From: Halomonas sp. M20
Lineage (GTDB): Bacteria; Pseudomonadota; Gammaproteobacteria; Pseudomonadales; Halomonadaceae
DNA: 64,000 nucleotides
Direction: 5' to 3'
Assembly (NCBI RefSeq): GCF_020622265.1
Contig: NZ_JACNMQ010000001.1
Location: 62,001 to 126,000, forward strand
Shown here: positions 27,367 through 28,439 of the stretch, one piece after another
How positions within the stretch are numbered: the first letter of the stretch is position 1
Layout: each line of letters opens with the position of its first letter
Program-made: the position numbers and the translations under genes
Notes under the pieces: generated by a model
Told to the model about the DNA's origin: nothing
The model's input: only the letters and a program-made list of their open reading frames with translations
Databases searched by the model: none

Positions 27367-27411
27367 AGGGTGTTTACAAAAGTGACGAGCGCAGTAGTTT
27401 GTAAACACTCT
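27367..27411. mobile_element. Short MITE-like inverted repeat, copy A (internally deleted)
   Basis: AGGGTGTTTACAAA (27367-27380) and TTTGTAAACACTCT (27398-27411) form an imperfect terminal inverted repeat enclosing 17 bases. TTAG occurs just before (27363-27366) and just after (27413-27416), compatible with a short target duplication. The termini match those of copy B at 28220-28358. It lies between convergent genes and may also act as a bidirectional terminator. Confidence 0.55.
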
Positions 27412-27412
27412 C

Positions 27413-27661
27413 TTAGGCGGCAGTGATGATGTGATATTTCTTCATCAACTCGTCCTTGGTCTCTTCGCGCTCGGGGTCGAGCGGAATGCAGTCCACGGGA
27501 CAGACTTGCTGACATTGCGGCTCGTCGTAATGCCCGACGCATTCGGTGCACAGATTGGGATCGATGACGTAGATCTCTTCCCCTGGTGAAATGGCATCGT
27601 TGGGGCACTCGGGCTCACAGACGTCGCAGTTGATGCATTCGTCGGTGATCATCAGGGCCAT
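27413..27661 (-). CDS. YfhL-type ferredoxin with two 4Fe-4S motifs
   Basis: 82 residues. First cluster motif [12 protein letters not shown], second [18 protein letters not shown], where the insertion between the second and third Cys identifies the YfhL/Allochromatium-type ferredoxin. It carries electrons at low potential. The reverse-strand stop overlaps the TTAG just outside the MITE-like element. It is immediately downstream of coaD on the same strand, the arrangement seen in many Gammaproteobacteria. Confidence 0.92.
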
Positions 27662-27722
27662 GAGTCATATCCTCGCTACGAAGTAGTGGAGTGAAGTAAC
27701 GCGCCTATCACGAATCTACGCG

Positions 27723-28205
27723 TCAAGACGCATGATAACGTGCCCGCAGGGCATCGGCGACCCGTGGATGCACCAGTTGGCCGACGTTGCCACCCAAGCG
27801 TGCAATCTCTCTTACGATGGTAGCTGAAATATAGGAGTTTTCGACGGCCGGGGTCAAAAACAGGCTCTCCACATGGGGCGCCTGGGCGCGGTTCATGTTG
27901 GCCAGCTGCAATTCGTATTCGAAATCCGAAACCGCACGCAGCCCCCGCAAGATGATACGTGCGCCTTGCTGGTCCAGCAGCTCGGTAAGCAGGCAGCTGA
28001 AACCCACCACCTCGACGTTGCCCAGGCCGTCGACTACCTCTTCGATCAAGGCAATCCGGGTATCGATATCCAGTGCCGGCTGCTTGTTCGGGCTTTCCGC
28101 CACCGCCACCACCAGCTTGTCGAACATGCGGGCGGCGCGTTCGATCAGGTCGTAATGCCCGTTGGTGATAGGGTCGAAAGTGCCGGGATAGACCACGGTA
28201 TTCAT
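27723..28205 (-). CDS. coaD: Phosphopantetheine adenylyltransferase
   Basis: 160 residues, typical of CoaD. It transfers AMP from ATP to 4'-phosphopantetheine, giving dephospho-CoA. The nucleotidyl-transferase TxGH-like motif is [12 protein letters not shown] near the N-terminus, and the ISATIVREI near the C-terminus is the ISSTxxR type motif of the family. The ATG at 28205 is preceded by AAAGGA, which overlaps the 5 bp direct repeat left by the MITE-like element inserted just upstream, so the insertion left the ribosome site intact. Confidence 0.95.
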
Positions 28206-28219
28206 GGATAAATCCTTTG

Positions 28220-28358
28220 AAGGTGTTTACAAAATGCCTGCACTTGGCAATACAGCGTTGAAATTGACCTCAAAATGCTCATTTACACCCAGTAAACTGC
28301 GCTTTTTCGCTCAATTTCGCCTTGTCTTGCCTTCGTTCGCCTGTTTTGTAAACACCCT
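28220..28358. mobile_element. MITE-like element, copy B (139 bp)
   Basis: Terminal inverted repeats AAGGTGTTTACAAAA (28220-28234) and TTTTGTAAACACCCT (28344-28358), 14 of 15 positions matching. The direct repeat CTTTG occurs on both sides (28215-28219 and 28359-28363), which looks like a 5 bp target duplication. The inside has its own dyad (ATTTACACCCAGTAAA region) but no credible open frame. It lies between coaD and fabY. Confidence 0.75.
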
Positions 28359-28439
28359 CTTTGCCAGATCAGGGTGTAGCGATAGCTGCGCTTGAGGCCA
28401 TTGTCTGCCTTTCAGGCATCGTTTCAAGAGGCCCGGCTT

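Follow-up and report, generated by a model that had tools for sequence, protein, structure and literature searches.

The two repeats that flank a ferredoxin–coaD gene pair in the 64,000-bp stretch of Halomonas sp. M20 DNA analysed here ("the window") are best explained as copies of non-autonomous mobile elements, the longer of which carries a hairpin core likely to have a role in 3′-UTRs, a reading to which we assign a probability of roughly two in three. Mechanistically, the inverted arms of these copies would be recognised in trans by an IS5-like transposase capable of moving the element, a core of ~104 nt would be carried as a hairpin under changing transposon ends, and the short copy would have had its core removed by a deletion between its GCTCG repeats; the core, when transcribed in the sense RNA of an upstream gene, would constitute a 3′-UTR hairpin, and insertions at such places would be tolerable or useful.

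The long element (141 bp; 28219–28359; plus strand, i.e., the strand of the core covariance model, R1) belongs to arm type GAGGGTGTTTACAAAA, was delimited by sequence and by model match and is located between coaD and a beta-ketoacyl-ACP-synthase-like gene (28440–30356, minus strand; best match fabF with 93.9 bits, under the curated cut-off). It consists of a left inverted arm, GAAGGTGTTTACAAAA (28219–28234, plus strand), a structured core scoring 115.5 bits to R1 (28238–28341, plus strand, or G000:C7:90238-90341 in the contig, the window starting at C7:62001) and a right inverted arm reading GAGGGTGTTTACAAAA on the minus strand (28344–28359), the whole being bounded by a TTT target duplication (left copy at 28216–28218, right copy at 28360–28362). 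The short element (47 bp; 27366–27412; minus strand) comprises both arms (27366–27381 and 27398–27412) and the two ends of the core collapsed at GCTCG, with CTACTGCGCTCGTCAC between the arms on the minus strand. Its target duplication, TTA (27413–27415, minus strand, with a second copy at 27363–27365), is the TAA stop of the gene encoding an 82-aa YfhL-family 4Fe-4S dicluster ferredoxin (27413–27661, minus strand), toward which the model-left end of the element is directed. The other gene of the flanked pair, coaD (27723–28205, minus strand), encodes pantetheine-phosphate adenylyltransferase (160 aa) and finds its nearest relatives by identity among Litchfieldella and Modicisalibacter records (Halomonadaceae).

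A preliminary description of this DNA had located two copies of a single MITE family around the ferredoxin and coaD genes, and the repeats are indeed there, their bounds now being refined to 27366–27412 and 28219–28359. The ends of the long copy, then described as matching at 14 of 15 positions, are paired arms complementary at 15 of 16 positions (94%). Likewise, the CTTTG and TTAG direct repeats noticed around the long and the short copy, respectively, contain genuine duplications but were read as too long, the former reducing to TTT with the C and the G shared, and the latter to the 3-bp TTA that is the ferredoxin stop codon.

Neither the repetition nor the folding of these sequences is expected by chance. 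With up to two mismatches, GGTGTTTACAAAA has four matches in the window compared to a mean of 0.52 in shuffled sequences, a number of four being reached in 1 of 100 shuffles, while the exact 13-mer of the arm end occurs nine times in the whole genome as against zero for a reversed-pattern control. The fold z-scores on the two strands are −6.5 and −6.1 for the long copy (0 and 0 of 200 shuffles as good) and −5.0 and −3.5 for the short copy (0 and 3 of 200). The open reading frames listed over the long element either do not exceed 63 aa inside it or run through it from outside; at 141 bp it is too short for a transposase and thus has no transposase gene.

The mobility of the elements is indicated by the comparison of the corresponding intervals in 14 genomes of the genus, in which presence and absence were judged by eye. 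The long copy is found in two of them (G000, the genome of the window, and G083) and is missing from 12, and an exact empty site, GGCAAAGG, is preserved in two relatives (L216 and L215) where the filled site reads GGC-AAA-element-AAA-GG. The short copy is found in one genome, its site being empty in the other 13, although there the pre-insertion sequence is inexact, the bases that follow the stop being different in the relatives. Furthermore, neither copy was seen, again by eye, at 43 named coaD loci. Taken with the many copies revealed by the genome search for the terminal repeats that had been proposed earlier (the nine 13-mers and 39 blastn matches of the long copy), the empty sites found for both copies show that these sequences are neither unique nor fixed in place. 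The elements are short and have terminal inverted repeats, are accompanied by target duplications and empty sites, and are multicopy with no transposase gene, so that "MITE" is a fair name for both, save that an autonomous partner having these arms was not found. What the notion of one MITE family overlooked, while correctly recognising two related MITE-like copies with inverted arms, 3-bp duplications, many copies and empty sites, is that a common core is found under many arm types.

As judged from the style of the arms, the C-NNN-G target and the 3-bp duplication, the arms are probably acted upon in trans by a transposase of the IS5-like kind. The IS5-like insertion sequences include several subgroups, among them the IS1031 and IS427 groups. 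In the genome of the window no autonomous element that shares these arms was detected, the sole pair of facing arms at the length of an insertion sequence (994 bp, 27366–28359) being that made by the outer arms of the two window copies themselves around ferredoxin and coaD; by virtue of this arrangement the two might conceivably be mobilised together as a single unit. Of the PF13340 loci in the genus, 30 were fetched and nine of these have clear ends, which are of the GAGTGCCTTTCAAAACC or CTAGGGTCTGTTGACGTTTCAC type, similar in style to the ends of the window elements and different from them in sequence, and no long arm pair or autonomous partner was seen by eye among the matches listed in two further searches. 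At one locus (L122:402-416) a lone extra arm, GAGGGGGTTTACAAA, adjoins a full copy. As to the site of the long element itself, insertion went into CAAAG directly before coaD (28206–28218); the AAAGGA left by the duplication adjoins the coaD start codon and is a possible ribosome-binding site.

Alignment of the blastn matches of the long copy (28 of the 30 fetched loci, L022 and L031, which represent one split copy, being excluded) reveals a common core of ~104 nt flanked by outer arms that differ. The model R1, built from these 28 copies including the long copy of the window, detects 56 copies of the core in this genome. At least five arm types can be distinguished, namely GAGGGTGTTTACAAAA, the type of the window, with two inner subtypes, TAGGCTnTGTCTGAAAAGT, AGAaCCTGTCCATGATCT-like, AATATCAAACGA and GGAAACACTGCATAAAT, and there are further copies with no clear arm. 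The sequence CTACTGCGCTCGTCAC of the short copy is what is expected, with one further change, if the core of a CTACTGCGCTCG...TCGCTCGTGAC element was deleted between two GCTCG repeats; judging from this sequence match, the core of the short copy was probably removed when the DNA between the repeats situated at the core ends was deleted. The earlier proposal that it is an internal deletion of the same element holds as far as the deletion is concerned, yet the parent form is the related CTACTGCGCTCG...GTGAC subtype (L018, L024, L028) and not the neighbouring long copy. Collapsed forms similar to the short copy, with CTGCGCTCG alone between short arms, are present in relatives at argG (L377, G073) and lysS (L339, G083).

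The core extends far beyond this genome. All searches with R1 were made inside the phylum, with rough E-values and with stricter filters for those covering more than 40 genomes; in three overlapping samples, matches were obtained in 96 of 121 genomes of the family (20 of 24 genera), in 143 of 369 genomes of the class (114 of 272 genera) and in 82 of 299 genomes of the phylum, 57 of these 82 being outside the class. Outside the family the arms differ again, examples being TTAACAGGCTGTTGAAAAA, TTCTACTGTGTCACAAAGCG, TAGGGCCTGTTAACAC, AGAGGCTGTTTGGTGATTG and ATGAGCGCTTTGCACGAA. When the arms of copies from other genomes were compared each with its own 20 shuffles, 65 of 85 rows (of the 86 available) beat them.

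Conservation of the core concerns its structure to a large extent. In 86 matches at 84 loci of other genomes, chosen mostly as the best match per genome and aligned to the model, a procedure that favours the structure, pairing is maintained in 96.5% of the cells and two-sided changes are seen at 29 of 32 pairs. The covariation score is 0.495 compared to 0.058–0.098 with slid partners, and is equalled in 0 of 500 shuffles. A MAFFT alignment of the copies of the genome of the window displays two-sided changes at 17 of the 32 pairs. Column conservation was determined in 57 of the 86 rows (L154-L182 excluded, the family rows L183 and L256 kept); six columns are invariant, i.e., CTCA (50–53), G77 and T102, and the highest conservation lies in or beside two internal loops, one in which CTCA is opposed to CT(C/G)C-G and one in which GTT is opposed to GCCTT, the mean information being the same for paired and unpaired columns (1.02 and 1.03 bits, respectively). 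Overall, selection appears to have acted on the core as a folded molecule, in which two internal-loop stretches are fixed.

Less can be said about the strand. At variable pairs G-T (28 cells) and A-C (37 cells) are about equally frequent, so that the pairs alone express no strand preference, and an attempt to call the strand from the G-T pairs failed at these positions; two T-G pairs, one fixed (84 of 86 rows) and the other common (48 of 86), favour the model strand. No Rfam match above the gathering score was obtained in the window, and the core has no match at either gathering or relaxed thresholds; two matches under the gathering score were obtained in a set of six loci, both outside the core.

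In this genome the position of the copies with respect to genes is biased. According to gene calls and open-frame stops obtained with simple scripts, none of the 56 copies is inside a called gene, 38 being located between tandem genes, 15 between convergent genes, one between divergent genes and two not being classed; the model strand is the sense strand in 28 of the tandem copies and not in 10. In 35 of the 56 cores an inbound stop codon starts, in sense, 7–22 nt before the model-left end, and an inbound stop within 25 nt of the right end occurs in three of 56 (left vs right, p = 7e-8); at random positions of the same loci a stop is nearby in 52 of 1710 cases. Other genomes show a weaker orientation bias than this one, with counts of 15:7 at 31 loci of the family (p = 0.13, not significant) and 24:11 at 55 other loci (p = 0.04). 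In many armed copies the stop occupies the expected position of the target duplication, just as in the short copy of the window; the latter, with its model-left end facing the ferredoxin gene whose stop it occupies, obeys a genome-wide rule that had gone unnoticed in the preliminary description. The long copy is an exception, being beside the start of coaD and in the opposite orientation. Sites that coincide with a stop represent 3 of the 26 tolerated CTNAG, 0 of the 30 CTAG and 49 of the 805 TNA sites of the window, and this scarcity, in a sample consisting of one 64-kb window, indicates that the supply of sites is insufficient by itself to account for the placement. Since the core looks selected and most copies of this genome are directly behind a stop in one orientation, the core most likely serves, we infer, as a 3′-UTR hairpin within the sense transcript of the gene upstream.

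A stop 1–14 nt before the core is found in 11 copies of this genome and in 13 others, a set of copies lacking clear arms, even though some of these (L153, L165, L185, L190 and L192) are actually armed with the stop inside the arm. In several others (L152, L293, L298, L184 and L264 among them) the sequence next to the stop forms a few base pairs with a reverse-complementary stretch on the other side of the core, differently at each site; such site-specific arms may originate by copying at insertion, by later palindrome correction or by selection for pairing. A survey of 15 chosen sites out of the 56 in 6 of 13 relatives (82 of 87 matches fetched, five weak ones excluded) detected a core by the model beside the corresponding stop in 22 of the 82 stretches and at 9 of the 15 sites, with other hairpins or none elsewhere. 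At the sites of L147 and L305, relatives have the core under different arms at the same stop. At argG, five of six relatives have no arms and the sixth (G073) is the collapsed form; at efp, two relatives without core (G114 and G073) are also without the right arm. The idea that the copies without terminal inverted repeats (TIRs) are seated in older terminator hairpins was weakened by these arm-free relatives at argG and efp.

These data must be weighed against a neutral explanation, by which the elements would be ordinary MITEs having the core as a passenger, the compensatory changes would be produced by templated correction as quasi-palindromes are replicated, and stop codons would be merely harmless sites. 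Correction of this type is a known DNA-level process and predicts the near equality of G-T and A-C at variable pairs; the TNA and CTAG targets include stop triplets, no copy is inside a called gene and the copies without TIRs contain inverted copies of the stop-adjacent sequence, all of which this explanation accommodates. Correction, however, should erase the internal loops, whereas the most conserved columns are precisely in or beside them, and neutral tolerance explains neither why 35 of 56 copies are behind stops when stops are so few among the tolerated CTNAG and TNA targets nor the 35:3 orientation, so that we consider the neutral explanation somewhat unlikely. A quite improbable alternative is that of a directional insertion after stops by a mechanism sensing single strands or RNA and copying the target as an inverted repeat. 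The orientation bias would follow from it, as would the TIR-less copies whose site-specific arms take in the stop codon, the two core-less relatives at efp that also have no right arm and the different elements found at the same stop in relatives at the L147 and L305 sites; against it stand the armed copies, with their 3-bp duplications and an end symmetry typical of DDE elements, the fact that there is no candidate enzyme, and the possibility that the arms of the TIR-less copies came later by palindrome correction or selection.

The occurrence of cores behind stops in both tandem and convergent gene pairs, and of other repeat hairpins at the same positions in relatives, could also suggest that the core belongs to the host as a 3′-end element of the REP or terminator kind and is incidentally within transposon arms. 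Such an origin has, in our opinion, a small chance of being correct in view of the target duplications and empty sites of the window copies, of the size of the core (~104 nt) with its conserved loops and of the absence of any called terminator-like site from both the long and the short copy. Moreover, a terminator situated only some bases past the end of a gene is reported to be almost wholly repressed (PMC4824070), which makes it less likely that the outer stem is simply a terminator. The reading preferred here, that of non-autonomous mobile elements with a hairpin core probably functioning in 3′-UTRs, is the one with which the known systems are now compared.

Like the window family, the MITEs of IS5-like insertion sequences are short and geneless, have inverted arms and CTNAG- or CTAG-like targets and leave empty sites; the window family differs from them in having one structured core over many arm types, an orientation bias at stops and a partner insertion sequence that was not found. 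REP/BIME sequences resemble the core in being palindromes near stop codons with many copies per genome, but REPs, which depend on a RAYT transposase, are about 20–40 nt long, whereas the core has ~104 nt and often possesses arms and duplications. Concerning placement and folding, the nearest described element is QMITE2 of Coxiella burnetii, which is likewise strongly folded, is often at the 3′ ends of genes and has smaller armless forms (PMC5896051). Identity of the core with QMITE2 was set aside from the description alone, the duplications published there being 7–11 nt and its GTAG REP being targeted by IS1111 (PMC5896051). The Tn3-derived TIMEs are miniature elements defined by inverted repeats as are those of the window, and differ by being Tn3-type by name (PMC4133298). 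No description of a core common to several arm types is contained in the part of the review PMC10969869 that was available, nor was one of this core found in the literature covered on MITEs, Halomonas palindromes and REPs, to which most subscription journals did not belong.

A broader and rather unlikely proposition, which we put forward tentatively, is that the core is a distinct and ancient mobile module that is spread throughout the phylum, swaps its ends, settles in sense behind stops and acts through its two loops in the 3′ ends of mRNAs. If the preferred reading is right, a single conserved fold would be carried by many transposon ends across the phylum, the 3′ ends of core genes (argG, efp, ppc, sufB, lysS, tldD and parE) would have been changed by it, and one could test on it how selection acts on a non-coding structure that is mobile. 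The natural insertions, the empty sites and the collapsed forms would represent a ready set for measuring the effects of hairpins in the proximity of stops.

Finally, the core is in some cases accompanied by additional structures. An extra small hairpin is present at one and the same place in five copies of this genome (L013, L014, L022 with its split part L031, L028 and L038), the arms of which differ. Elsewhere, three core matches are arranged in tandem downstream of one gene (L264:1501-1846), the later two being weaker (42.6 and 30.1 bits), and core copies with additional nested hairpin modules occur at L282, L283 and L285, the insert of L283 presumably resembling a Pseudomonas REP.
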